From the NCBI RefSeq assembly GCF_000425805.1, contig NZ_AUED01000017.1, positions 62,001 through 126,000 on the forward strand: a DNA stretch of 64,000 nt, read 5' to 3'. This DNA is from Pseudomonas vranovensis DSM 16006 (GTDB lineage Bacteria > Pseudomonadota > Gammaproteobacteria > Pseudomonadales > Pseudomonadaceae). The position numbers and the translations under genes were made by a program. Within the stretch, counting starts at the first letter, position 1; each line of letters starts with the position of its first letter. A model generated the notes under the pieces. It was given only the letters and a program-made list of their open reading frames with translations. It did no database searches and was not told the DNA's origin. Of this stretch, positions 49,444 to 62,065 are shown piece after piece.

Positions 49444-50415
49444 ATGTCAGCGCTTTCGCTAAACGCTATCTACCTCGCCCGCCAGCGTATCGCCGGCCTC
49501 GTGCGTACAACGCCGATGGAGCATTCGCCGAGCTTGTCGAAGCTCATGGGCGTGGCGGTCTACCTCAAGCTCGACTCCCAGCAGATTACCGGCAGCTTCA
49601 AGCTGCGCGGTGCCAGCAATGCCATTGCTCAACTCGATACCGACAAGAAGGCCCGGGGCGTGGTGGCCGCGTCTACCGGCAATCATGGCCGGGCGCTGGC
49701 TTACGCCGCTGCGCAGTTGGGGGTTCGGGCCACGATCTGCCTGTCGCAGTTGGTGCCGGCCAATAAGGTTCAGGCGATTCGCGATTTGGGCGCCGAGGTG
49801 TGCATCGTCGGCCATTCCCAGGATGACGCCCAGTGCGAAGCCGAGCGTATCGCCGCCGAGCAGGGCGCCACCTTGCTGCCGCCGTTCGATCACCCCGAGA
49901 TCATTGCCGGCCAGGGCACCCTGGGCCTGGAGATTCTGGAGCAACTTCCACAGGTCGCCCAGGTGCTGGTGCCGCTGTCGGGCGGTGGCCTGTTTGCCGG
50001 CGTGGCGCTGGCACTCAAGAGCACCAACCCGGCCATCACCCTGCACGGCATCAGCATGCGTCGTGGTGCGGCCATGCACGCCAGCCTGTTCGCCGGCCAG
50101 CCGGTGGACGTGCAGGAGCTGCCCACCCTGGCCGACTCCCTGGGTGGCGGCATCGGCCTGGACAACCAGTACACCTATTCCATGACCCGCGAGCTGTGCG
50201 ACCAGGTACACCTGCTCGATGAAGCCTCGATTGCCGCCGGCATGCGCCACGCCTATCGCCAGGAGCGGCAGGTGGTGGAGGGCGCGGGCGCGGTGGGCAT
50301 CGCGGCCCTGCTCGACGGGCTGATCCCGGCGCGGGGCCCGATCGTGGTGGTGGTCAGTGGCCGCAATGTCGACATCGAACAGCACCTGCGGGTGATGAAC
50401 GGCGCCGACGCCTGA
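49444..50415 (+). CDS. eutB: Hydroxyectoine utilisation dehydratase EutB
   Basis: A 323-residue fold-II PLP enzyme of the threonine dehydratase type with Schiff-base Lys53 (GSFKLRGASNA) and the PLP phosphate loop SGGGLFAGVALAL. In ectoine clusters EutB converts the hydroxyectoine-derived intermediate. ATG 49444 (MSALSLNAIYLARQRIAGL) gives the family length. Threonine dehydratase activity is the alternative; the context favours EutB. Confidence 0.86.
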   Translation: MSALSLNAIYLARQRIAGLVRTTPMEHSPSLSKLMGVAVYLKLDSQQITGSFKLRGASNAIAQLDTDKKARGVVAASTGNHGRALAYAAAQLGVRATICLSQLVPANKVQAIRDLGAEVCIVGHSQDDAQCEAERIAAEQGATLLPPFDHPEIIAGQGTLGLEILEQLPQVAQVLVPLSGGGLFAGVALALKSTNPAITLHGISMRRGAAMHASLFAGQPVDVQELPTLADSLGGGIGLDNQYTYSMTRELCDQVHLLDEASIAAGMRHAYRQERQVVEGAGAVGIAALLDGLIPARGPIVVVVSGRNVDIEQHLRVMNGADA

Positions 50416-50440
50416 GACGGTTTCCAACGGAGGATATGTG

Positions 50441-51433
50441 ATGCCTGCTACTACCTTGCTCAGCGAAGCCGACCTGCGTGCCTGCGTCAGCCTTGACCCG
50501 GCGGCGGTCGATGCCATCGAGCATGCCTTTGTATTGCTGGCGACGGCGGCGGTGGCCATGCCACCGATCCTGCGCCTGGATGTGCCGGAGCATAACGGCG
50601 AGGTCGACGTAAAGACTGCCTACCTGCCAGGTCTCGAGCGTTTTGCAATCAAGGTCAGCCCGGGTTTTTTCGACAACCCCGCGCTGGGCTTGCCCAGCCT
50701 CAACGGCATGATGATGCTGCTGTCGGCTCGTACCGGCCTGCTCGAAGCCTTGCTGCTCGACAACGGCTACCTGACCGCGCTGCGCACTGCCGCTGCCGGC
50801 GCTGTGGCTGCCCGCTGGTTGTCCCGTGAAGACAGCCGCAGTGTGGCCCTGATCGGCACGGGCGAACAGGCGCGCCTGCAGCTGCAGGCCTTGCGCCTGG
50901 TGCGTCCGATCGAGGCGGTGCGAGTGTGGGGGCGGGACGCCGAAAAGGTCGCGGTCCTGTGTGACGAGCTGGGCTGTGATGGCCGCCTGCAGGTGCTGGC
51001 CTGCAGCTCGGTCGATGAGGCCATGCACGGGGTGGACATCGCCGTCACCACGACGCCGAGCCGTGAGCCATTGATCGAGGTACGCCACCTGCAGCCGGGC
51101 CTGCACATCACCGCCATGGGCTCGGATGCCGAGCACAAGAATGAAATCGCCCCGGCCGCGCTGGCCGCGGTGGACTGTTATGTGGCCGACCGCCTGAGCC
51201 AGACCCGCGTGCTGGGCGAGATGCATCACGCACTCAAGGCTGGCCTGGTCAGCGAAGAAAGCGGTTTCAGCGAGCTGGGCCAGGTGATTGCTGGCCAGCG
51301 TCCGGGGCGCAGGGACGCCCGCGATATCACCCTGTGCGACCTGACTGGCACCGGCGCCCAGGACACCGCCATTGCCAACCTGGCCTTCGAGCGTGCGCTC
51401 AAGGCGGGCAAGGGATTGCAGTTCAACAGCTGA
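50441..51433 (+). CDS. eutC: EutC, ornithine cyclodeaminase/mu-crystallin family
   Basis: A 330-residue protein of the ornithine cyclodeaminase/alanine dehydrogenase family with the NAD-binding SVALIGTGEQARLQLQALRLVRPIE and FKVSPGFFDNPALGLPSLNGMMMLLSARTGLLEALLLDNGYLTALRTAAAGAVAARWL region. EutC is paired with EutB in hydroxyectoine use. ATG 50441 has CGGAGG seven bases before it. Confidence 0.87.
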   Translation: MPATTLLSEADLRACVSLDPAAVDAIEHAFVLLATAAVAMPPILRLDVPEHNGEVDVKTAYLPGLERFAIKVSPGFFDNPALGLPSLNGMMMLLSARTGLLEALLLDNGYLTALRTAAAGAVAARWLSREDSRSVALIGTGEQARLQLQALRLVRPIEAVRVWGRDAEKVAVLCDELGCDGRLQVLACSSVDEAMHGVDIAVTTTPSREPLIEVRHLQPGLHITAMGSDAEHKNEIAPAALAAVDCYVADRLSQTRVLGEMHHALKAGLVSEESGFSELGQVIAGQRPGRRDARDITLCDLTGTGAQDTAIANLAFERALKAGKGLQFNS

Positions 51434-51467
51434 TCACTCCGATTACTCACCCAACGAGGGTATTTGC

Positions 51468-52658
51468 ATGTCTGAGGTCGTCGTCAATCTGCCGTTCAGT
51501 CGGCAGGAGTATGCGCAGCGCCTGGCCAAGACCCGCGCCGCGATGCAAGCGCAAGGCATCGAGTTGCTGCTGGTTACCGACCCGTCGAACATGGCGTGGC
51601 TGACGGGCTATGACGGTTGGTCGTTCTATGTGCACCAGTGTGTGTTGCTGGCGCTGGACGGCGAGCCGGTGTGGTATGGCCGCGGCCAGGACGCCAATGG
51701 CGCCAAGCGCACGGTGTTCATGCGCCACGAGAACATCGTCGGTTACCCGGACATCTACGTGCAGTCGCGCGAGCGTCATCCCATGGATTATCTCTGCCAG
51801 GAGGTGATCGCCGCCCGGGGCTGGAGCACGCTGAGCATCGGCGTTGAAATGGACAACTACTATTTCAGCGCCGCCGCCTTCCTGTCGCTGCAAAAGCATT
51901 TGCCCAAGGCACGCTTCAGCGATGCAGCAGGGCTGGTGAACTGGCAGCGGGCGATCAAGTCGAGCCAGGAAATCGAGTACATGCGTATTGCTGCGCGCAT
52001 TGTCGAGAACATGCATGCACGGATTCTGGAGCGCATCGAGCCGGGCATGCGCAAGAACGAGCTGGTGGCCGAGATCTACAGCAGCGGCATCCTCGGTGCC
52101 GACGGTCATGGCGGCGACTACCCGGCCATCGTGCCCTTGCTGCCTACCGGTGCCGACGCCAGTGCCCCGCACCTGACCTGGGACGACACCCCGTTCGAGA
52201 AAGGCGCCGGCACCTTCTTCGAGATCGCCGGCTGCTACAAGCGCTATCACTGCCCATTGTCGCGCACGGTGTACCTGGGCAAACCGCCGCAGCACTTTCT
52301 CGATGGCGAGAAGGCCGTGGTCGAAGGCATTGCCGCTGGCCTGGAGGCGGCACGTCCCGGCAACACTACCGGTGACGTGGCCAAGGCCTTTTTCAAGGTG
52401 CTGGAGAAGTTCGGCATCCACAAGGACAGCCGCTGCGGCTACCCGATCGGTATCAGCTATCCGCCAGATTGGGGCGAGCGCACCATGAGCCTGCGTCCAA
52501 GCGACACCAGTGTGTTGCAACCGGGCATGACGTTTCACTTCATGCCGGGCCTATGGATGGACGACTGGGGCCTGGAGATCACCGAAAGCATTCTGATTAC
52601 CGACACCGGCGTCGAAACGTTATGCAACGTACCGCGCCAACTGTTCGTGAAGGATTGA
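51468..52658 (+). CDS. doeA: Ectoine hydrolase DoeA
   Basis: A 396-residue pita-bread-fold (M24 peptidase-like) enzyme. DoeA opens the ectoine ring to N-acetyl-diaminobutyrates. The N-terminal creatinase-like domain starts MSEVVVNLPFSRQEYAQRLAKTRAAM and ends with NMAWLTGYDGWSFYVHQCVL; the C-terminal M24 fold contains GDYPAIVPLLPTGADASAPHLTWDD, but a full dimetal ligand set is not obvious, as in the DoeA family. It is 34 bases after eutC. Confidence 0.9.
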   Translation: MSEVVVNLPFSRQEYAQRLAKTRAAMQAQGIELLLVTDPSNMAWLTGYDGWSFYVHQCVLLALDGEPVWYGRGQDANGAKRTVFMRHENIVGYPDIYVQSRERHPMDYLCQEVIAARGWSTLSIGVEMDNYYFSAAAFLSLQKHLPKARFSDAAGLVNWQRAIKSSQEIEYMRIAARIVENMHARILERIEPGMRKNELVAEIYSSGILGADGHGGDYPAIVPLLPTGADASAPHLTWDDTPFEKGAGTFFEIAGCYKRYHCPLSRTVYLGKPPQHFLDGEKAVVEGIAAGLEAARPGNTTGDVAKAFFKVLEKFGIHKDSRCGYPIGISYPPDWGERTMSLRPSDTSVLQPGMTFHFMPGLWMDDWGLEITESILITDTGVETLCNVPRQLFVKD

Positions 52659-52661
52659 GCC

Positions 52662-53681
52662 ATGAACGCACCTCTGCCTGAAGCCACGCTGGCGGTGAAC
52701 CCGATCAGCAGCACGGTCGACTTCGAACGCGACGGTGTACAGCACGGTTTTCTCAAATTGCCCTATTCGCGGGACGACTCGGCCTGGGGCGCGGTGATGA
52801 TCCCGATCACCGTGGTGAAGAATGGTACAGGCCCCACGGCGTTGCTCACCGGCGGCAACCACGGTGACGAGTACGAGGGGCCGGTGGCCTTGAGCAAGCT
52901 GGCGCAACGGCTTGAGGCCGGCCAGGTAAGCGGGCGGGTGATCATCGTACCGTTCATGAACACCCCGGCGTTCCATGCCGGTCAGCGCACCTCGCCGATC
53001 GACAAGGGCAATATGAACCGCAGCTTTCCCGGCAAGCCCGACGGCACCGTGACGCAGAAGATCGCTGATTACTTCCGGCGCACGCTGCTGCCACTGGCCG
53101 ACATCGTACTGGATATCCATTCCGGTGGCCGCACCCTGGACTTCCTGCCGTTTGCCGCCTGTCACGTGTTGCCCGACAAAGCCCAGCAAGCGCGCTGCGA
53201 GGCCGCCATGCGGGCCTTTGCCGCGCCCTACAGCATGCGCATGCTCGAACTGGATGCGCAGGCCATGTACGACACCGCCGCCGAGAGCCAGGGCAAGGTG
53301 TTCGTGACCACCGAACTGGGGGGCGGCGGCTCGTCCACCGCCCGGAGCGTGGCCGTGGCCGAGTGCGGAGTGCGTAACGTGCTGGTACACACGGGAATCC
53401 TTGAAGGCGAAGTACTGCCCGGCGACTCGATCATGCTCGACATGCCGGGTGACGACTGCTTCGTGGCCAGTGAGCACGACGGTCTGCTGGAGATGTGCCG
53501 CGACCTGGGCGAGCGGGTCGAGCAGGGCGAGGTGATCGCCCGTATCCACGATATCAAGCGCAGCGGTGCCACGCCGGTCGAGTACCGCGCCCGGCGCAGC
53601 GGGTTGCTGGCTGCGCGGCATTTTCCGGGGCTGGTGCAGTGTGGCGATACCCTCGCGGTAGTCGCCGAGGTCCTGCAGTAG
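52662..53681 (+). CDS. doeB: N-alpha-acetyl-L-2,4-diaminobutyrate deacetylase DoeB
   Basis: A 339-residue zinc-dependent deacylase of the succinylglutamate desuccinylase/aspartoacylase family. Zinc ligands are seen at His67 and Glu70 (GGNHGDEYEGP) and His153 (LDIHSGG). It deacetylates the DoeA product to diaminobutyrate. It begins three bases after doeA. The family belongs to the ectoine operon. Confidence 0.92.
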   Translation: MNAPLPEATLAVNPISSTVDFERDGVQHGFLKLPYSRDDSAWGAVMIPITVVKNGTGPTALLTGGNHGDEYEGPVALSKLAQRLEAGQVSGRVIIVPFMNTPAFHAGQRTSPIDKGNMNRSFPGKPDGTVTQKIADYFRRTLLPLADIVLDIHSGGRTLDFLPFAACHVLPDKAQQARCEAAMRAFAAPYSMRMLELDAQAMYDTAAESQGKVFVTTELGGGGSSTARSVAVAECGVRNVLVHTGILEGEVLPGDSIMLDMPGDDCFVASEHDGLLEMCRDLGERVEQGEVIARIHDIKRSGATPVEYRARRSGLLAARHFPGLVQCGDTLAVVAEVLQ

Positions 53682-53712
53682 CGCATTACCCACACGGTTT
53701 GGAGAACTCGAT

Positions 53713-55185
53713 ATGCCACACAAGCATGCGCTGACGTTCAAGACCCTCTGTCATGTGGACGGCCAATGGCTGCACAGCGCCACGGGCAACAGCATTGCCG
53801 TGCACAACCCAGCCACCCGCCAGGTCATTGGCCATGTGCCAATGCTTGAGCACGAACAGATCGTTGCTGCCGTCGACGCCGCCCAGCGTGCTTTCGGAGC
53901 GTGGCGCGCCCGGAGCCTGGAAGAGCGGGCGACGCTGCTGCGCCGTTGGGCCGAGCTGATCCTGGATCATCAGGAAGAGCTGGCGCGGATCCTCAGTGAA
54001 GAGCAGGGCAAGTCACTGGTCGAGGCACGGGGCGAGATCGCCTACGCGGCCAGCTTTATCCCCTGGTTCGCCGAAGAGGCGCGGCGCCTGTACGGCCAGA
54101 CCATCCCCAGCCATATCCCAGGTGCTCACCTGGGGACGGTGAAGGAACCGGTGGGCGTCTGCGCCTTGCTTACACCGTGGAACTTCCCCAGCGCGATGAT
54201 TACCCGCAAAGCCGCTGCCGCGCTGGCCGCTGGCTGTACCGTGGTGGTCAAGCCCGCCCATGAAACACCGTTCTCGGCCCTGGCCCTGGCCCAGTTGGCA
54301 GAAGAGGCAGGTTTTCCCGCCGGTGTCTTCAACGTGGTGATCGGCGAACCACAGATGACCATGGAAACCCTGGTGCGTGATTCCCGGGTACGCTCGGTCA
54401 GCTTCACCGGCTCCACCCGGGTGGGCAAGCTGGTGCTGCAGGCCGCCGCGCAGGACGTGAAGAAAGTAGCCCTGGAATTGGGTGGCAATGCCCCCTTTAT
54501 CGTCTGCGCCGATGCCGACCTGGAGCTGGCGGTGAAGGTCGCGGTGGCGGCCAAGTTCCAGACCTCGGGGCAGGATTGCTGCGCCGCCAACCGGATCATG
54601 GTGCAACGACCGCTATACCCGGCCTTCGTCGCCCGCTTCGCCGAAGCGGTGCGGGCGTTGCGTGTGGGGCCGGCGATGGTGGGCGGCGAAGAGATGCCGG
54701 TGGATGTCGGCCCACTGATGCACCAGGGCGCGTTCGATGCCACCTGCACCCGGGTCGAGGACGCCATTCACAAAGGTGCCCGTTGCCTGGTGGGCGGTGA
54801 AGGGCACGCACTGGGCGGCTGGTTCTATCAGCCCACCGTGCTGGTCGATGTGAGCCCGCAGATGCGCATTTACCAGGAAGAAAACTTCGCCCCGATTGCC
54901 GGCGTCATGCCGTTCGACACCCTCGATGAGGCGGTCGCCATGGCCAATGACACCGAGTACGGGCTGGCGGCCTATATCTGCTCCAACCGCCTTGACCAGG
55001 TGTACCCGCTGATCCGGCGGCTGGACCACGCAATGGTCGCGGTCAACGGCGTGAAATTCACTGGCCACCCGATCCCCTTCGGCGGCATGAAGGCTTCGGG
55101 CCTGGGCCGCGAGGGCGGTAGCGAAGGCTTTGAGCCCTTTATCGAAACCAAGTACTTCTGCCTGCACCACCAAGGTCAACTTTAA
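53713..55185 (+). CDS. doeC: DoeC-type aldehyde dehydrogenase
   Basis: A 490-residue NAD(P)-dependent ALDH of the succinate-semialdehyde-dehydrogenase group, with ELGGNAPFIVCADADLELAV and catalytic Cys in FQTSGQDCCAANR. In ectoine breakdown DoeC oxidises aspartate semialdehyde to aspartate. It starts 31 bases after doeB. Confidence 0.86.
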   Translation: MPHKHALTFKTLCHVDGQWLHSATGNSIAVHNPATRQVIGHVPMLEHEQIVAAVDAAQRAFGAWRARSLEERATLLRRWAELILDHQEELARILSEEQGKSLVEARGEIAYAASFIPWFAEEARRLYGQTIPSHIPGAHLGTVKEPVGVCALLTPWNFPSAMITRKAAAALAAGCTVVVKPAHETPFSALALAQLAEEAGFPAGVFNVVIGEPQMTMETLVRDSRVRSVSFTGSTRVGKLVLQAAAQDVKKVALELGGNAPFIVCADADLELAVKVAVAAKFQTSGQDCCAANRIMVQRPLYPAFVARFAEAVRALRVGPAMVGGEEMPVDVGPLMHQGAFDATCTRVEDAIHKGARCLVGGEGHALGGWFYQPTVLVDVSPQMRIYQEENFAPIAGVMPFDTLDEAVAMANDTEYGLAAYICSNRLDQVYPLIRRLDHAMVAVNGVKFTGHPIPFGGMKASGLGREGGSEGFEPFIETKYFCLHHQGQL

Positions 55186-55196
55186 GGAGCGTTGCC

Positions 55197-56582
55197 ATGA
55201 GCCAAGATTTCAGCCAACTGTTCGAACAAGACCGTGCCCATTTCATGCATCCGTCAACCCACGCCCATGATCACGCCAGCGGTGCGCTCAAGGGCCGAAT
55301 CATCACCGGCGCAGAAGGTATCCGCCTGCGCGACCACGAGGGCCGCGAGCTGATCGACGCCTTTGCCGGCCTCTACTGCGTGAACATCGGCTACGGCCGC
55401 ACCGAAGTGGCCGAGGCGATCTACAAGCAGGCCAAGGAGCTGGCGTACTACCACACCTATGTGGGCCACTCGACCGAGGCGATCATCGAGCTTTCCAGCC
55501 GCATCATCGACTGGGCGCCCGAGGGCATGAAAAAGGTCTACTACGGGCTCTCCGGTTCCGATGCCAACGAAACCCAGATCAAGCTGGTGCGTTACTACAA
55601 CAACATCCTGGGCCGCCCGCAGAAAAAGAAAATCATCTCCCGCGACCGCGGCTACCACGGTTCGGGGATCATGACCGGCAGCCTCACCGGCCTTGCCAGT
55701 TTCCACCAGAATTTCGACTTGCCGGCCGAAGGCATCAAGCACACTGTCTGCCCGCACTGGTACCGCAAGGCCCCGGCCGGGATGGATGAAACCGCGTTCG
55801 TGCAGTACTGCGCCAACGAGTTGGAAAAGATGATCCTGGCCGAAGGTCCCGACACCGTGGCGGCGTTCATTGGCGAGCCGCTGATGGGGACCGGCGGCAT
55901 CATCGTGCCGCCCAAGGGCTACTGGGCGGCGATCCAGGCGGTGCTGAACAAGTACGACGTGCTGCTGATCGCTGATGAAGTGGTGTGTGCGTTCGGTCGC
56001 CTGGGTTCGAAAATGGGCAGCCAGCGCTATGGCATGAAGCCCGACCTGATCACCACCGCCAAGGGCCTGACCAGCGCCTACGCGCCATTGTCGGCGGTGA
56101 TTGTCGGTGAGAAAGTGTGGAGCGTGATCGACCAGGGCTCGCAGAAAGAGGGCGCCATGGGCCACGGCTGGACCTACTCCGGGCACCCGGTATGCGCCGC
56201 GGCGGCACTCGCCAACCTGGACATCCTGGAACGAGAGAACCTCACCGAGAATGCCGAGGTGGTGGGGGCCTACCTCAACCGCGCACTGCGCGAAGCGCTG
56301 GAAGGTCACCCGCTGGTGGGCGAAGTGCGTGGCGACGGCATGCTCGCGGCGGTGGAGTTCATGGCCGACCGTGAAGCACGCACGCCATTCGACCCGAGCT
56401 TCAAGATCGGTCCGCAAGTGTCCGCTGCCTGTCTTGAGCGTGGCATGGTCGCCCGGGCGATGCCTCATGGTGACATCCTGGGCTTCGCACCGCCGCTGGT
56501 GCTGACCCGCGAGGATGCCGACCTGATCGTCGCCATCACCAAGGATGCGGTCGACGAGGTAGCAGGCAAAGTGCTGGGCTAA
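55197..56582 (+). CDS. doeD: DoeD diaminobutyrate transaminase
   Basis: A 461-residue class-III PLP aminotransferase with the PLP lysine in TTAKGLTSAYAPLSAVIV and substrate-like motif ADEVVCAFGRLGSKMGSQRYGMKPD. DoeD turns diaminobutyrate into aspartate semialdehyde. It begins 11 bases after doeC and is the last gene of the ectoine operon. Confidence 0.9.
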   Translation: MSQDFSQLFEQDRAHFMHPSTHAHDHASGALKGRIITGAEGIRLRDHEGRELIDAFAGLYCVNIGYGRTEVAEAIYKQAKELAYYHTYVGHSTEAIIELSSRIIDWAPEGMKKVYYGLSGSDANETQIKLVRYYNNILGRPQKKKIISRDRGYHGSGIMTGSLTGLASFHQNFDLPAEGIKHTVCPHWYRKAPAGMDETAFVQYCANELEKMILAEGPDTVAAFIGEPLMGTGGIIVPPKGYWAAIQAVLNKYDVLLIADEVVCAFGRLGSKMGSQRYGMKPDLITTAKGLTSAYAPLSAVIVGEKVWSVIDQGSQKEGAMGHGWTYSGHPVCAAAALANLDILERENLTENAEVVGAYLNRALREALEGHPLVGEVRGDGMLAAVEFMADREARTPFDPSFKIGPQVSAACLERGMVARAMPHGDILGFAPPLVLTREDADLIVAITKDAVDEVAGKVLG

Positions 56583-56608
56583 ACCTGCCGGCGCCCCCTG
56601 AAAAGGCA

Positions 56609-56645
56609 AAACCCCGTCTCGGCAACCGAAGACGGGGTTTTGTAT
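56609..56645. terminator. Bidirectional terminator after doeD and ppk2
   Basis: AAAACCCCGTCT (56609-56620) and AGACGGGGTTTT (56631-56642) are perfectly complementary, with T-runs usable on both strands, between convergent doeD and ppk2. Confidence 0.88.
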
Positions 56646-56657
56646 TCATGGCGCTGG

Positions 56658-57467
56658 TCAGAAGCGTTGGGGAATCTTCCGGAACGGGTAGTCGATGCTC
56701 TTGTACTGGCCGATCTTGCCGCGCTTGGGCAGCTTGATCTTCTCGTCCTGGGTGATGTCCTTGTAGGGAATCTGCTTGAGCAGATGGCTGATGATGTTCA
56801 GCCGCACCCGCCGTTTGTCTTCGGAAGGTGCCATGTACCACGGGGCCCAGGAGGAGTCGGAGGCGGCGAACATCTCGTCGCGGGCGCGGGTGTAGTCGTC
56901 CCAGCGATTGAACGACTTGAGATCCATGGGCGAGAGCTTCCAGATCTTGCGGCCATCGGTGATGCGCTCTTCCAACCGGCGCTGTTGCTCTTCGGGGCTG
57001 ACCTCAAGCCAGTACTTGATGACAATGATGCCGGACTCCACCAGCATCCGTTCGAACAGCGGTACGACGTCGAGGAATTTCTTCGCCTGGTCTTCAGTAC
57101 AGAAGCCCATGACCCGTTCGACGCCGGCGCGGTTGTACCAGCTGCGGTCGAAGATCACTACCTCGCCTGCCGCAGGCATGTGCTCAAGGTAGCGTTGGGA
57201 ATACATCTGGCTCTTTTCCCGCTCGGTCGGCGCCGGTAGCGCCACAACGCGGAACACCCGCGGGCTGACCCGTTCGGTGATGGCCTTGATGGTCCCGCCC
57301 TTGCCGGCGCCGTCACGGCCTTCAAAAATGACGCAGACCTTCAGGCCCTTGGCCACGACCCACTGCTGGAGCTTGACCAGCTCGACGTGCAGGTTCTTGA
57401 GTTCCTTTTCGTAGTCCTTGCGAGGTAGTCGTTCTGCGTCACGGGCCTTGTCTTTTTTCTTGCTCAT
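56658..57467 (-). CDS. ppk2: Polyphosphate kinase 2 (PPK2 class I)
   Basis: A 269-residue P-loop kinase: Walker A EGRDGAGKGGTIKAI, lid region and Walker B VIFDRSWYNRAGVERVMGFC, plus KYWLEVSPEEQQRRLEERITDGRKIWKLSPMD. PPK2 phosphorylates nucleoside diphosphates using polyphosphate. The length fits single-domain class-I PPK2. The gene is monocistronic and convergent with doeD. Confidence 0.95.
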   Translation of the reverse strand: MSKKKDKARDAERLPRKDYEKELKNLHVELVKLQQWVVAKGLKVCVIFEGRDGAGKGGTIKAITERVSPRVFRVVALPAPTEREKSQMYSQRYLEHMPAAGEVVIFDRSWYNRAGVERVMGFCTEDQAKKFLDVVPLFERMLVESGIIVIKYWLEVSPEEQQRRLEERITDGRKIWKLSPMDLKSFNRWDDYTRARDEMFAASDSSWAPWYMAPSEDKRRVRLNIISHLLKQIPYKDITQDEKIKLPKRGKIGQYKSIDYPFRKIPQRF

Positions 57468-57583
57468 GGAGGTTGCCTGGTCAGTGAAAGTGGAATTGAG
57501 TATAGGCAGGGCTGTTGAAGGAGAACGCTGACCCGAGGCAATGAAAGAGGATTACTTGAGACGCTGAGGGATAGTGCAGGGAA

Positions 57584-57620
57584 ATGAACAGAACTCCGGG
57601 GTTGCCGGGGCTCTGTTCAT
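57584..57620 (-). terminator. Hairpin at the end of the WYL-associated operon
   Basis: ATGAACAGA (57584-57592) pairs with TCTGTTCAT (57612-57620), with additional CCGG pairing inside. Read on the minus strand it follows the stop of the glycine-rich gene by 23 bases and is followed by TTTCCC. The 57468-57643 gap otherwise shows nothing. Confidence 0.6.
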
Positions 57621-57643
57621 GGTCTTTACCGCAGTCTTGTCGT

Positions 57644-58648
57644 TCAGGCCGCGAGTTTGCCGCGGATATCCTGGGAGTGCGCCAATTCTTTGTGGATATT
57701 GTCCTGCAGTACCACGTCTTTGCCGTTTTTCTTTTTCACCAACACCGTCTGAACCAGATCGGTCAGCAACTTGACCAGCATGATGTTGTTGGATAGCAGG
57801 TCTTTTTCGTCTTGGCTGAAGGCGTTGTAGTCGGTTTGGCGCTGGATTAACTGTTCAAGGCGAGTGAGATGTTTGACGTACAGGTTGAATGTGATGGTCA
57901 GCTCACCAATGATCTTGTCGCTGATCAGCCTGAGCTTTTTGAGATAAACCGTCGACTCTTTGATCAACTGGACAGCATTGTCCACTTCCTTGCGGATTTC
58001 TTCGGCTTTCTCCAGGCTGGAGTTACCCTTGGCATTGAGCAGTAGGCCGCCAACTGCAAGCACGGGCCCGGCAACCGCCCCCGACAGAACCATCGAGCCC
58101 AGGGCCATGCCACCCCCTCCTGCGGAAAGAGCGCCGCCACCCAGAGCGGCCAGGGTCGCATTGTAGGCGGCGACACCCGAAAGCGAACTTATGGCTGTAC
58201 CGGTGGATGCCACGCCCAGGGCCATGGTTCCGCCATAGGCCGCGAAGCCGGCCAGCGCGCCAGCACTTGCGGTGAGTGCGGAGCTGCCCAATAGGTCGAT
58301 AGCGGAAATGGAGATCTGCTTGATTTCGTCCAGTTGGTGCTTGGAGAAGCGGATGTCTTCGCCGTGGAACTCTTTGAACTCCGGCTTGTTCTTGATCTTC
58401 TCGTAGGCTGCGGCAAAGCGTCCAAAGCTGCGGCTGACGTCCAGCTTCAGGGTGCCCAGCGTCTGCAGAGACATTTCGGTCTGCTTCTGGTCGTTATCCA
58501 GTTGGTCTTTTGCGCGGTTGTATCGACCCTCGGCATCGCTGACGATACCCTTGGCTTCAGAGATCTTCTTGGCACCTTTGACCCCGCCGGCAATCCCGGC
58601 CCCGCCTGCAACTACAGCTGCACCGATCAACAATAACGGTAATGGCAT
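57644..58648 (-). CDS. Glycine-rich membrane protein of unknown function
   Basis: A 334-residue protein not recognised as a known family. A hydrophobic, Gly/Ala-rich N-terminus (1-23, MPLPLLLIGAAVVAGGAGIA) is followed by a helical charged part (30-110), a long glycine/alanine-rich hydrophobic region (about 115-205, including GGGALSAGGGGMALGSMVLSGAVAGPVLAVGG), and a helical C-terminal part. The layout suits a membrane-inserting or pore-like protein, but this is inference. It is last in a four-gene operon-like cassette, two bases after the CxxCxxCC gene. Confidence 0.7.
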   Translation of the reverse strand: MPLPLLLIGAAVVAGGAGIAGGVKGAKKISEAKGIVSDAEGRYNRAKDQLDNDQKQTEMSLQTLGTLKLDVSRSFGRFAAAYEKIKNKPEFKEFHGEDIRFSKHQLDEIKQISISAIDLLGSSALTASAGALAGFAAYGGTMALGVASTGTAISSLSGVAAYNATLAALGGGALSAGGGGMALGSMVLSGAVAGPVLAVGGLLLNAKGNSSLEKAEEIRKEVDNAVQLIKESTVYLKKLRLISDKIIGELTITFNLYVKHLTRLEQLIQRQTDYNAFSQDEKDLLSNNIMLVKLLTDLVQTVLVKKKNGKDVVLQDNIHKELAHSQDIRGKLAA

Positions 58649-58650
58649 GT

Positions 58651-58917
58651 CTATCCTGTCCTTTTGCTCTTGAGGGTTTCACACGCCGCCTGGTTGAGTG
58701 CATGAAACTGCTCTCGCGTCATGTGATGTGCGTAGAAGTGCTCGTAGCTTTCGTCGATCCGACACTTGAGGGGACGTTGTGCATAGGTGCCGCAACGACG
58801 ATTGGCGCGGTCGTAATGGCGGCAGACGCCCGTTCCGTCATCCAGGTCGCTGTAAAGTGGATTGGCGCCCAAGTTCTGGCAGCACAGTCCACATGCATCG
58901 CAATTGAAGCGCGACAT
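58651..58917 (-). CDS. YkgJ-like CxxCxxCC small protein
   Basis: An 88-residue protein of the YkgJ/PF03692 type with Cys6, Cys9, Cys12 and Cys13 (CDACGLCC) and more cysteines at about 32, 42 and 52 (CRHYDRANRRC and LKC). Such proteins probably bind zinc or an Fe-S cluster. It lies six bases after the HNH-motif gene and two before the glycine-rich gene, so it is part of the same transcript. Its role is unknown. Confidence 0.78.
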   Translation of the reverse strand: MSRFNCDACGLCCQNLGANPLYSDLDDGTGVCRHYDRANRRCGTYAQRPLKCRIDESYEHFYAHHMTREQFHALNQAACETLKSKRTG

Positions 58918-58923
58918 GCTGGG

Positions 58924-60588
58924 TCAGAACACCAGCACGGCATCTTTGTCGTTCATGAAATCGTCCAGGCCTTGGCGGTCCTGATAGGGCATATCGATCT
59001 TGCAGGTGTTCATCGCTTCAAACAGTGCGTCGTTGAGCTCTGCATTGTTTTGCGACCGCGCCAGATTGGCATTGATCTGTTGCAGCTTGTCCAGGTCCGC
59101 TTGCAACTGCTGGAAGTCGATGCCCGCCAGTTGTGCGGTGTAGGCTTCCAGCCGCTGGCTCACCGCTTTGTAATAGTCCAGTGTGTAGTCGATGCTGGAC
59201 TTCAGGCCGTTGGCGAACGTGACAATTTGGTTGACCAGTGGCGAATGGTCAATGAAGTAGAGCAGCGAAATGTTCAACAAGCCGCCTGCCAATGCGCCTA
59301 CGAATGTCGACAGGATTTCGCCCAGAATTGGTACCTGAAGACCTGGCACCTTGGAGATGGCCTCCTGGACCAGAGCGCCAGTACAGACCGAGACACCGGT
59401 GGCGACGATCTTGGAAACCGCACGCAGCAGCTCGCCGAAGGGAAGGTGCTGCGGATTGAAGACCAGCGTCTTTACCGCCTCGACAATAGTTGCCCAGGAC
59501 TCGCGGAGAATCTTGGCCACATTCTTTGCAGTGGTGAAGAAAATGTTGATCAAGGTGGTCATCACCGACGACAGTGCACCAGCCAGCATGCCGTCCTTGA
59601 AGCGAGTCAACAATTCGCCACGCTTGGCCTGAACGCGCTCGAAAGCACCTCTGCAAGTGTTGCCCAGATGCTGCAGGAACAGACCGAGATCAAAGTTGCC
59701 TTTCAAACTCTCCAAAATGTGTGGCAGTTCTTGGCGCACCGCATTCCAGGCTTCGAGCATAATCATGCCGAGCGTCTCGCGAGCGCCCATGCGCAGCCCC
59801 TGGTTGAGGCTGGCGCTGGCACTGGCAGCTAGGAACTCGCTACTGTTGTAGTAGCTGCTGGCCAAGTCTTTTTCGTAAGCTTCGCGGGCAATCTTGTCTT
59901 TTTCACGCAGCTTGGCAGGGTCGACGGCGTCGAGTTTCTCAAGCTTATTCAGCGTCTTGCGCTCCTTGTCATCGAGCCCGACGGTGCGCTGCTTTGATTT
60001 CAGTGAACTGATCTCGGCCTTGCGACCAGCTTCGTTCTGGTCGAGGTAGTTGATGAACTGCTCGGCGCTCTTGTCCTTCTTCGAGGTATTTACCGACCCG
60101 TCGGTGGCATTGAGGTTGCTGCGCTGGTTGGCCAGCTCGACACCGTCTCGGCCCGCCAGGACTCGCGCCGGATCATCGTGTATTGCCTTGGCCGAGATGG
60201 TGTGGTCGCGGTGTACATCGGCGTTGGCGGCAAAGGCCTGGCCGGTATAGGCGTCGTTCAGAGTACCGGCCTGTTTACCTGCTTTGTACTCTCGCCCCAC
60301 CTGAATGTAGGTGTCGGTGGAGTGGTAGGCTGCGCTGTCATACTCGCCACGCGCGTTGAAGCGTGCCTCATTGCGCACATCAGCGTAGCCGACCGAATCG
60401 GCCCGGACAGTGTGCAAGGTGTCAACATGTCCACCTCGTCGGTCGTTGGCCAGGAGAAAGTCCAGCCCAAACGAGGTCAGGAGGCTTTTGACCACCACCT
60501 GCTCATACTGCTGCAGGAGGCTATAGCTGACATCCGGCGTAGCGTGGCGGATGGCCTGCGACAGAGGGTCCAGGGCGAGGCTGGTCAT
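58924..60588 (-). CDS. Large protein with HNH-type motif and hydrophobic C-terminal half
   Basis: A 554-residue protein with no family recognised by me. Residues 124-170 hold an HNH-like pattern: DVHRDHT (Asp128-His129), SNLN (Asn158, Asn160) and SVNTSK (Asn167, Lys170), with the DH...N...NxxK order seen in Cas9-type HNH nucleases. Residues 185-245 are charged and helical, and two hydrophobic stretches follow (about 333-356 and 394-445). A nuclease tied to the membrane is suggested but not proven. ATG 60588 is supported by AAGGAG nine bases upstream; the longer frame is rejected. Confidence 0.72.
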   Translation of the reverse strand: MTSLALDPLSQAIRHATPDVSYSLLQQYEQVVVKSLLTSFGLDFLLANDRRGGHVDTLHTVRADSVGYADVRNEARFNARGEYDSAAYHSTDTYIQVGREYKAGKQAGTLNDAYTGQAFAANADVHRDHTISAKAIHDDPARVLAGRDGVELANQRSNLNATDGSVNTSKKDKSAEQFINYLDQNEAGRKAEISSLKSKQRTVGLDDKERKTLNKLEKLDAVDPAKLREKDKIAREAYEKDLASSYYNSSEFLAASASASLNQGLRMGARETLGMIMLEAWNAVRQELPHILESLKGNFDLGLFLQHLGNTCRGAFERVQAKRGELLTRFKDGMLAGALSSVMTTLINIFFTTAKNVAKILRESWATIVEAVKTLVFNPQHLPFGELLRAVSKIVATGVSVCTGALVQEAISKVPGLQVPILGEILSTFVGALAGGLLNISLLYFIDHSPLVNQIVTFANGLKSSIDYTLDYYKAVSQRLEAYTAQLAGIDFQQLQADLDKLQQINANLARSQNNAELNDALFEAMNTCKIDMPYQDRQGLDDFMNDKDAVLVF

Positions 60589-60655
60589 AGAGCGTGCTCC
60601 TTGCAGGAATGAGGCAGGCATGGCTCTTGTCACCGATGCGCCTTGATATGGCGCG

Positions 60656-60684
60656 AATATAGCCAAGTGCCATTATCCATTCAA
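60656..60684 (-). promoter_or_regulatory. Sigma-70-type promoter of the HNH-motif gene
   Basis: On the minus strand TTGAAT (60679-60684) and TATATT (60656-60661) are 17 bases apart. GCGCC/GGCGC (60638-60654) forms an inverted repeat at the expected start site, and ATAATG repeats lie in the spacer. These could be operator sequences for the WYL regulator upstream. Confidence 0.65.
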
Positions 60685-60707
60685 GGCATTATGCTATCAC
60701 TCCGTGG

Positions 60708-61580
60708 TCAATCGTACAGCCACGGTCTCAATTCCTTAAGGTTGGAAACCACGATTTGCTGTGCTTCAGGATTAGGGTCCAGGTTTCTGTGATCGATCTG
60801 GTAACGCTGCAAAACATATTTCACCAGTGCCTTGCGGCTGGGTACCAGCAAATGTCCATCCGTCATGCCGAAGTCGGTCTCGATGATCGCTTTTTGCGCA
60901 TCGTTCAATCGTCCATCGGGCGCGATGATGACTGGTACTTCAGTGTTCCAGTCCTCATCCAGTGAACGGGTGTTCTGCGATACATCAAGCAGTTCTGGCT
61001 GGCCCCGCAGGCGGCTGAGTACAAAGTCCCGGTACTGGCCGTTCTTTTCACAATAGGCTCGCACATGCCAGCGCATGCCGGTGTAGACCAGCGTGTGAGG
61101 GGCAATAAGACGTACATCCACATTCGGGGAGTTGAGCGACACGTACTCGGTTTCCAGGCGCAGGCCATCGCGGCAGGCCTTGAGTAGTGGACGCAGGACC
61201 TCGGGGCGAATGGGCCGGTCCGGAACCTCCAGAACCTTGGTGTGGGCATAGGCCAGTGCCAGGCCTTCGATGTGTGGAGCCCGTTCGTTGTTTTGATAAA
61301 GCAGGTGTAGATAGGCGCTGGCACTGTCGTCGATAAACAGCGGCTTGAAGGATTTGCTCGGTACATAGCCCTTGAGCTGTTTGTCATATGTCAAGTTTCG
61401 AGGCGCATGTTCAGTGATGTAGGTGTTGATGTCTTTGGACGCCTGCTGGCGGCTGATGCCGAAGCTCTGGATCAGGCGCCCCGTGGTCAGCCGGCCTTCC
61501 CACCAGGCAACGGTCTCGATCAAGCGATAGCGAAGTGCCAGGTCCCAGCGAACTTGTTTGATGGACTGCTTGCGCTTCAT
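60708..61580 (-). CDS. WYL-domain transcriptional regulator (BrxR/CapW-like)
   Basis: A 290-residue protein with an N-terminal winged HTH (about 15-60, SIKQVRWDLALRYRLIETVAWWEGRLTTGRLIQSFGISRQQASKDINTYI), a WYL domain (about 125-195; the WYL tripeptide is Trp171-His172-Val173, followed by RAYC and YRDFVLSR) and a C-terminal WCX-type part. The N-terminal GYVPSKSFKPLFI and overall layout resemble regulators of BREX and CBASS phage-defence operons. It is upstream of the HNH-motif gene by 119 bases, and has its own promoter at 61610-61638. Confidence 0.86.
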   Translation of the reverse strand: MKRKQSIKQVRWDLALRYRLIETVAWWEGRLTTGRLIQSFGISRQQASKDINTYITEHAPRNLTYDKQLKGYVPSKSFKPLFIDDSASAYLHLLYQNNERAPHIEGLALAYAHTKVLEVPDRPIRPEVLRPLLKACRDGLRLETEYVSLNSPNVDVRLIAPHTLVYTGMRWHVRAYCEKNGQYRDFVLSRLRGQPELLDVSQNTRSLDEDWNTEVPVIIAPDGRLNDAQKAIIETDFGMTDGHLLVPSRKALVKYVLQRYQIDHRNLDPNPEAQQIVVSNLKELRPWLYD

Positions 61581-61609
61581 AACCTCTCCATGTGTGCGAA
61601 TACTTTACC

Positions 61610-61638
61610 TGTATAAGTCTACATTCTAGATCTGTCGC
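61610..61638 (-). promoter_or_regulatory. Possible promoter of the WYL regulator gene
   Basis: On the minus strand GCGACA (61633-61638) and TATACA (61610-61615) are 17 bases apart, 30-58 bases before the WYL start. Both boxes are 4/6 matches, so this is tentative. Confidence 0.4.
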
Positions 61639-61698
61639 TAAACACTACATATCGTGTTCCTGTCTTGGGGTGAATCGAATTCACGAAAGGAAGTGAGC

Positions 61699-61959
61699 AT
61701 GGATATGTCTGAAGTGGTTTCGGTGGGGGCAATGGTAATGATGGGGGCAATATTGCTAGCGCTTTTGCTGCAGTACCTTAGATTGTGTGAGCTCTGGAAA
61801 ATGGCGCTCGGCTGCCAAAAGAACGCGCGTTGGGCGCGGATCTGGGAAATGGAGAATCGGGAGTTGCGCTCGGCGTTGCGGGCGGAGAAAGCACACTTGG
61901 AGCAATTGCGTAAACAACTGGTAGTTTTGCAAAGCCGGAATCTTGAGGGATCTCGATAA
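61699..61959 (+). CDS. Small single-pass membrane protein with coiled coil
   Basis: The 86-residue protein has one hydrophobic segment (about 6-27, VVSVGAMVMMGAILLALLLQYL) followed by a charged helical coiled coil (about 40-78, MENRELRSALRAEKAHLEQLRKQLVVLQ). AAAGGAAG precedes ATG 61699. It is divergent from the WYL gene, so it may belong to the same locus. No family is recognised. Confidence 0.6.
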   Translation: MDMSEVVSVGAMVMMGAILLALLLQYLRLCELWKMALGCQKNARWARIWEMENRELRSALRAEKAHLEQLRKQLVVLQSRNLEGSR

Positions 61960-62027
61960 AAGTCACGGGTAAATAAAAAGCACGGGCTTCCATCTCCTAT
62001 GTGTTCTCTTGAATCCTGATGGAAAAG

Positions 62028-62065
62028 AAAAACCCCTTGAGGCCTAAATCCTCAAGGGGTTTTCT
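62028..62065. terminator. Bidirectional terminator after the small membrane protein and ychF
   Basis: AAAAACCCCTTGAGG (62028-62042) pairs with CCTCAAGGGGTTTT (62050-62063). T-runs are present on both strands. Confidence 0.88.

Follow-up and report, generated by a model that had tools for sequence, protein, structure and literature searches.

An exchangeable cassette of a predicted HNH nuclease and membrane proteins between ychF and ppk2 in Pseudomonas vranovensis, a candidate phage-defence module

The subject of this analysis is a gene cassette that lies between ychF and ppk2 in Pseudomonas vranovensis DSM 16006, within a stretch of 64,000 nucleotides of contig NZ_AUED01000017.1 (positions 62,001 to 126,000 of the forward strand), hereafter called the window. 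The cassette comprises four open reading frames (ORFs), all on the minus strand: D, C, B and a gene for a regulator with a WYL domain (hereafter WYL), with intergenic gaps of 2, 6 and 119 bases (Table 1). A preliminary description, made from the sequence alone, had noted this arrangement and stated that the cassette separates ppk2 from ychF and is richer in A+T than its neighbours. Our analysis agrees on each point: the G+C content of the insert is 0.556 compared to 0.622 for the window, the lowest value among all 4.5-kb windows taken at 500-base steps. Two features went unreported in that description, namely a small gene for a protein with a transmembrane (TM) helix, divergent from WYL, and the ychF terminator at the right edge. 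For B we place the start at the ATG at 60588 rather than at the TTG at 60666, because both the alignment and a start check favour the ATG.

Table 1. Coordinates of the features of the ychF-ppk2 slot, numbered from the first letter of the window.
Feature	Position	Strand	Remarks
D	57644-58648	-	334-aa Gly-rich membrane/coiled-coil protein
C	58651-58917	-	88-aa YkgJ-like CxxCxxCC protein
B	58924-60588	-	554 aa: predicted N-terminal HNH nuclease, C-terminal hydrophobic helices
Candidate B-C-D promoter, TTGAAT-17-TATATT	60656-60684	-	inside the WYL-B gap; weak
WYL regulator, BrxR/CapW family	60708-61580	-	PDB sequence matches
51-bp conserved block	61603-61653		lies in the gap from WYL to the small gene; candidate operator/promoter for both
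Small gene	61699-61959	+	86 aa from ATG 61699; one TM helix and coiled coil; divergent from WYL
Variable region	57516-62014		relative G346 aligns to 57515 and resumes at 62015
ychF terminator	62028-62064	-	right edge of insert; similar hairpin beside ppk2 in relative G007

Comparison with close relatives reveals that the cassette is a mobile insert in a chromosomal slot with exchangeable content. In G007 (YchF identity 98%) the slot is empty, and the ychF terminator leads directly into the region upstream of ppk2. G346, which is closer to the source genome than G007 (DNA identity 93% over 50353-57515, 97% at ychF), carries in the same slot (locus L235) no B and a different gene set beside WYL and the small TM gene; since the bounds of the G346 alignment enclose the small TM gene, we count it within the insert. 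From ychF to ppk2, L235 encodes in turn a 334-aa protein, two P-loop proteins, the small TM protein, a caspase-like protein and WYL (89% identical to the WYL of the window and adjoining ppk2). One of the P-loop proteins is LeoBC-like (PADLOC, 4.1e-11) and the other was assigned by inspection, as were the His and Cys motifs of the caspase-like protein, for which PADLOC gave no match. We regard this content as a different, predicted conflict module. Across the genus, some form of B occurs in 18 of 298 genomes, the source genome included; this supersedes a count of 6 in 194 made with a single sequence, in which cassettes of the D-B-C type had been overlooked. The preliminary description had proposed a candidate defence cassette and had named presence of the genes at the same locus in all close relatives, or a structural match to a metabolic or envelope family, as grounds for doubt. 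The genes are not fixed at the locus in relatives, no credible match to the structure of a metabolic family was obtained, and the variable neighbourhood and patchy presence support the proposal.

The catalytic motif of HNH (bba-metal) endonucleases is D-H ... N ... N/H. The corresponding residues of B (D129-H130, N159 and N168) are invariant in all 44 sequences of our alignment A6, in which the window is joined by 43 sequences from the 80 loci described below; broken copies (L094, L108, L143, L145, L149) and some others had been excluded. The same motif is kept in 16 of 16 sequences of an alignment that includes distant "type-2" forms of B. The HNH-type motif reported in the preliminary description is thus real, though no HNH model from Pfam matches B; PADLOC identifies the protein with the model PDC-M40B (1.1e-32). 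In the predicted structure the HNH region is modelled with high confidence (predicted local distance difference test score, pLDDT, about 95) and contains a strand (126-130), a second strand (160-164) and a helix (165-171). VIA structure comparison aligned this region with endonuclease I of V. cholerae (Z 6.6, root-mean-square deviation (rmsd) 4.2, 117 residues aligned) and with the HNH region of Cas9 8d2k (Z 5.7, rmsd 3.4, 91 aligned), but unrelated receptors score as high elsewhere in the model (up to Z 6.8). These middling VIA results were never used alone, and the lack of a listed fold is not read as a new fold. The only match in the BFVD structure search at E 0.001 or better was the protein of phage LAh10, and searches of PDB with sequence profiles from alignments A6 (B) and A7 gave no credible match. 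At the C-terminus, two B proteins of the B-C-D branch (window and L009) share a short hydrophobic tail of similar sequence (...VLVF and ...VLVFE), which is absent from the other rows of alignment A1. The annotation of public records (plasmids, phages, E. coli) frequently misnames these proteins, B as cob(I)alamin adenosyltransferase and D as chemotaxis protein.

C is indeed YkgJ-like, as the preliminary description put it: it matches PF03692 at 25.7 bits, above the Pfam gathering cut-off of 23, and no PADLOC model matched it. D matches the PADLOC model PDC-M09A (1.1e-34) and, weakly, LeoBC (5.6e-4). In the AlphaFold model of D (mean pLDDT 68), two long helices (22-84 and 208-270) flank a Gly-rich stretch of low confidence; this Gly-rich segment is strongly conserved, and hydrophobic segments lie at 1-24 and 181-206. 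Superposition of D on ClyA (Z 6.5, rmsd 8.6, 192 aligned) falls within the range of unrelated helical matches. Pfam identified no GTPase domain in either B or D.

B, C and D form a widespread triad. An alignment-based search of genome contigs found 84 relatives of B, of which 80 loci were kept, and a scan with a single B sequence gave 33 pattern matches, with no relative among them. In a co-occurrence check of the kind suggested in the preliminary description, D was found within 2.5 kb of B, on B's own strand, in 79 of the 80 loci, and C in 77; in L122, the single locus without D, 160 bases separate the start of B from the end of the contig. Measured by their longest frames, B and C overlap or abut in 70 of 74 cases. 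A WYL gene is found on the same strand within 3.5 kb of B in 46 of the 80 loci (53 on either strand, under a wider limit), and a TerB-like gene in six, two of them weak. The triad spans five phyla and two gene orders. D is ahead of B in 66 loci; the window and 13 loci, one of which lacks C, have the order B-C-D, the 13 being from Bacillota, Bacteroidota, Spirochaetota and Fibrobacterota; in L137, also from Bacillota, D comes first. In a tree built from 52 rows of B (a subset of the loci) the window clusters with 13 other B-C-D rows in a Bacillota-type branch (support 96/90), its placement inside that branch being weakly supported (86/37). Because the tree groups the window with these B-C-D rows, its copy of the triad probably came from outside its phylum.

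The triad is also found on plasmids and in genomic islands: tblastn searches of 72,556 plasmid records detected B in 71 and D in 11. Of 5,426 complete E. coli genomes, 425 have a match to the form of B represented by L007, in 365 of them covering at least 80% of the query, and every site is on the chromosome. We inspected ten hand-picked E. coli contexts, nine L007-type and one Klebsiella-type (three of the 30 best L007 rows, one of three long matches and six of 12 spread rows). All ten contain an integrase and nine an adjoining tRNA gene, and in eight there are restriction-modification (R-M), CRISPR or helicase-methylase genes within 15 kb, two of these damaged. Plasmid carriage and integrase-bearing islands, together with the VapBC genes that adjoin loci L008 and L016, would also be expected of a selfish module for plasmid or island maintenance, or for competition, with B and D as the toxin under the control of C or WYL. 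We find this explanation decidedly improbable, given that no constant antitoxin-like gene was noticed (the systematic count covered D, C, WYL and TerB only) and that the D-B pair of phages, described below, has no C and no WYL annotated nearby.

Among 50,697 phage records B is present in seven, all from Aeromonas phages of ~260 kb (D3, D6, D9, LAh10). LAh10 is a member of Chimalliviridae, genus Ludhianavirus, and D3 belongs to the same genus. LAh10 and D3 (L152 7967-11041, L153 7967-11041) encode D and B and then pagP (lipid A acylation). The phage D was recovered by a profile; tblastn of D against the phages gave none. Viral contigs yielded nothing for B other than a fragment located at one end of a 6.4-kb contig, and two D-like matches. 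With a single lineage of viruses involved, and given the large gene content of jumbo phages, the jumbo-phage link to defence is only suggestive. Another association comes from the type-2 branch of B, where one plasmid lineage (three enterobacterial records) has B directly after a JukA-domain protein (2.6e-58; L014 5603-8413) with an extra C-terminal part that is TerB-like by inspection; Pfam gave no TerB there. The partners of type-2 B that we inspected in the genus are coiled-coil or Gly-rich proteins, one of them with a sub-cut-off TerB match (6.8e-4).

The preliminary description likened WYL to the regulators of BREX and CBASS operons, and this comparison holds. WYL contains an N-terminal DNA-binding part and the WYL domain (Pfam, 1.1e-12), and it is similar over essentially its full length to BrxR (PDB 7t8k, 1.3e-67, residues 12-262) and CapW (5e-44, residues 8-288 of 290), which makes it a member of the BrxR/CapW family. 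According to PMC9122601, the BrxR family co-localises with diverse defence systems. The WYL type of the window is present in 71 of the 298 genus genomes (E 1e-60 or better), from which we took the 20 best-scoring loci, one per genome, not a random sample of the 71 genomes. The small TM gene is present at all 20, directly divergent in 17, and B at none. Its product has one hydrophobic segment and, by inspection, a coiled coil. In all 28 loci scanned, among them the window, the 51-bp block gives one strong match (score at least 57.8), with a weight matrix built from 24 aligned upstream regions, mostly of the same loci; its 22-bp core has one match in the source genome at up to three mismatches.

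What accompanies the WYL/small TM pair varies. We hand-chose 66 flanking proteins from 135 ORFs of 18 of the 20 loci (L237 and L247 were omitted), a choice that favours real-looking ORFs. The PADLOC matches listed for them (25 of 94 families) include 19 to LeoBC, 15 to LeoA, three to IetA and two to HEC-06, and a second scan (25 of 48 families listed) found ADP-ribosylglycohydrolase in seven. Individual loci contain JukA (1.1e-49) and a ZorA-like protein (1.3e-13) in L238, LeoB (1.6e-206) in L232 and a phospholipase-effector match (6.6e-6) in L241. Among 43 window ORFs scanned as a control, neither Leo nor Juk was matched; the matches were to mad3 and mad8, two each, and to AriA, AbiLi and ATPase-Toprim, one each. 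P-loop proteins were counted in at least 11 of the 20 WYL loci versus none in 18 ychF loci and 52.5 kb of the window, the former being a lower bound, as L232 with its LeoB and L235 with its LeoBC-like gene show: both of these genes escaped the count. C-like genes lie among, and overlap or adjoin, Leo-like GTPase genes in four of the 20 loci (L240, L242, L243 and L245), and the CxxCxxCC family may serve more than one type of module. Judged from these gene neighbourhoods, the WYL/small TM pair commonly accompanies modules of differing type, several of which belong to membrane-acting families. ADP-ribosylglycohydrolase genes adjoin the pair in the L230-L249 set and, by inspection, also in L081 (7392-8600).

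How WYL relates to the triad next to it is less simple. Nine other loci, which represent seven distinct sites, also have the window-type WYL near B, in cassettes of the D-B-C type and of type 2. Only in L021 is it upstream of B on the same strand; six of the others are convergent and two divergent. These orientations, together with the 20 closest WYL loci without B, weaken the idea that WYL belongs solely to B-C-D. The strand and the gaps are as the preliminary description gave them, but its "one unit" is uncertain in that the WYL pair also exists alone. There may instead be two adjacent units, an independent pair of WYL and the small TM gene and a B-C-D insert with its own promoter, and a promoter-like site does lie within the WYL-B gap, though shuffled sequence has as many sites of this type as the gap. 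We treat this as a real possibility that falls short of even chances. The recurrence of the window-type WYL near B with two other cassette types speaks against it, as do the other WYL genes on the same strand near the triad in more than half of the 80 loci and, in the window, the position of WYL a short distance upstream of B in the same orientation. WYL likely controls the neighbouring module in the window and in L021; that the small protein acts as a sensor is conjecture.

The regulator family, the island context, the candidate models matched by B and D, the associations with Juk and Leo and the patchy spread across phyla together point to a role of the cassette that is probably phage defence. 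With somewhat better than even confidence, we propose that it is an immune module passed on by horizontal exchange: an HNH nuclease held in a membrane, together with a partner that perturbs the membrane, would act on DNA there. The mechanism is suggested by the anatomy of the proteins. The BrxR-like WYL repressor would hold the B-C-D operon low, perhaps informed by the neighbouring small membrane protein. An infection that disturbs the membrane, or a ligand of the repressor, would cause B and D to be made or freed. D could then enter the membrane via its Gly-rich hydrophobic segment, where B would join it with its hydrophobic C-terminal half and cut DNA at or behind that membrane, either incoming phage DNA or the cell's own DNA as a last resort. 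C would be a metal-binding accessory.

Several observations count against this immune module, in addition to the closest WYL loci without B and the mixed orientations given above. Foldseek searches of PDB returned nothing for B at E 0.001 and nothing for D at that threshold either, the best for D being the alpha-pore AhlB at E 0.18. The C-terminal half of B is helical, and only one of its hydrophobic segments exceeds a strict threshold. No close inverted repeat of the classical BrxR kind was found upstream of WYL; the BrxR study (PMC9122601) gives inverted repeats for 193 of 347 homologues. Two of the ten E. coli contexts have no intact R-M or CRISPR genes. Finally, in all nine L007-type contexts the cassette is preceded by a gene for an outer-membrane protein and followed by a phosphoethanolamine-transferase-like gene (sulfatase-like by annotation in one, truncated in one), and pagP directly follows D-B in both phages inspected, again a hint of the envelope. 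The flanking genes of the L007-type cassettes are the main ground for a different explanation, a response to envelope stress or antimicrobial peptides in which D and B would mend or reshape the membrane and the HNH part would process DNA in connection with stress; the few TerB-like genes near the triad would also suit it. We consider it quite improbable: it hardly accounts for an invariant HNH motif, and the frequent R-M and CRISPR neighbours and the BrxR-type regulator also argue against it.

On comparison with known systems, the label "uncharacterised" of the preliminary description does not hold in full, since PADLOC lists B as PDC-M40B and D as PDC-M09A and the BrxR family has the association with defence systems given above. 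Our literature search found no description of the cassette, no paper naming the candidates PDC-M40 or PDC-M09 and none combining WYL, YkgJ and HNH. Compared by the names of these hidden Markov models alone, the cassette differs from PDC-M40 and PDC-M09 in having both proteins in one operon with a CxxCxxCC protein. According to PMC12988326, the PDCs are putative candidates obtained via "guilt-by-embedding", mostly without experimental validation. The cassette resembles Juk in its membrane theme, in the distant B directly after a JukA-domain protein and in the occurrence of D and B in Chimalliviridae phages, but it has a predicted nuclease instead of, or besides, a pore protein. PMC13282480 describes JukA as detecting early proteins of nucleus-forming jumbo phages and JukB as forming pores on the early vesicle. 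One JukA model found no JukA in the source genome, and no PADLOC match named JukB was obtained at E 1, the presence of a JukB model in the library being unconfirmed. The likeness to Juk is one of theme, and the cassette is not a Juk member. With the BREX and CBASS regulators BrxR and CapW, WYL shares near-full-length sequence similarity and a defence-type neighbourhood; its neighbours, however, are not those of BREX or CBASS, it is accompanied by the divergent small TM gene at its closest loci, and it has no clear inverted repeat. LeoABC is related through the dynamin-like modules that adjoin the same WYL pair in the genus, four of these loci including a CxxCxxCC gene, and a bacterial dynamin is reported to confer phage resistance (PMC8844932); in contrast, B and D have no GTPase domain that we could find, and the match of D to LeoBC is weak. 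As for SspE-type and other HNH effectors, the HNH region of the B relative in L008 weakly matches SspE (3.7e-4), whereas B has a hydrophobic half and a GTPase part was not found.

A bolder proposal, which we think unlikely, is that WYL and the small gene divergent from it, whose product has a single TM helix and a coiled coil, act together as a portable sensor linking membrane to promoter, beside which membrane-acting immune modules are swapped: the HNH-membrane triad, Leo dynamins, JukA, ZorA-like proteins or a phospholipase. The nuclease of the triad would reach DNA behind a membrane, for example in the early vesicle of nucleus-forming jumbo phages, and these phages, from which come the only named phage records found with D-B, would use it against competing phages.

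If the immune module is what we propose, it would be a widespread operon, found in five phyla among the loci fetched and with no description in the literature searched. A nuclease built into a membrane protein would be a possible answer to phages that hide their DNA behind a membrane. With one regulator pair beside many exchangeable immune modules, what the BrxR-type regulators sense would become directly testable.

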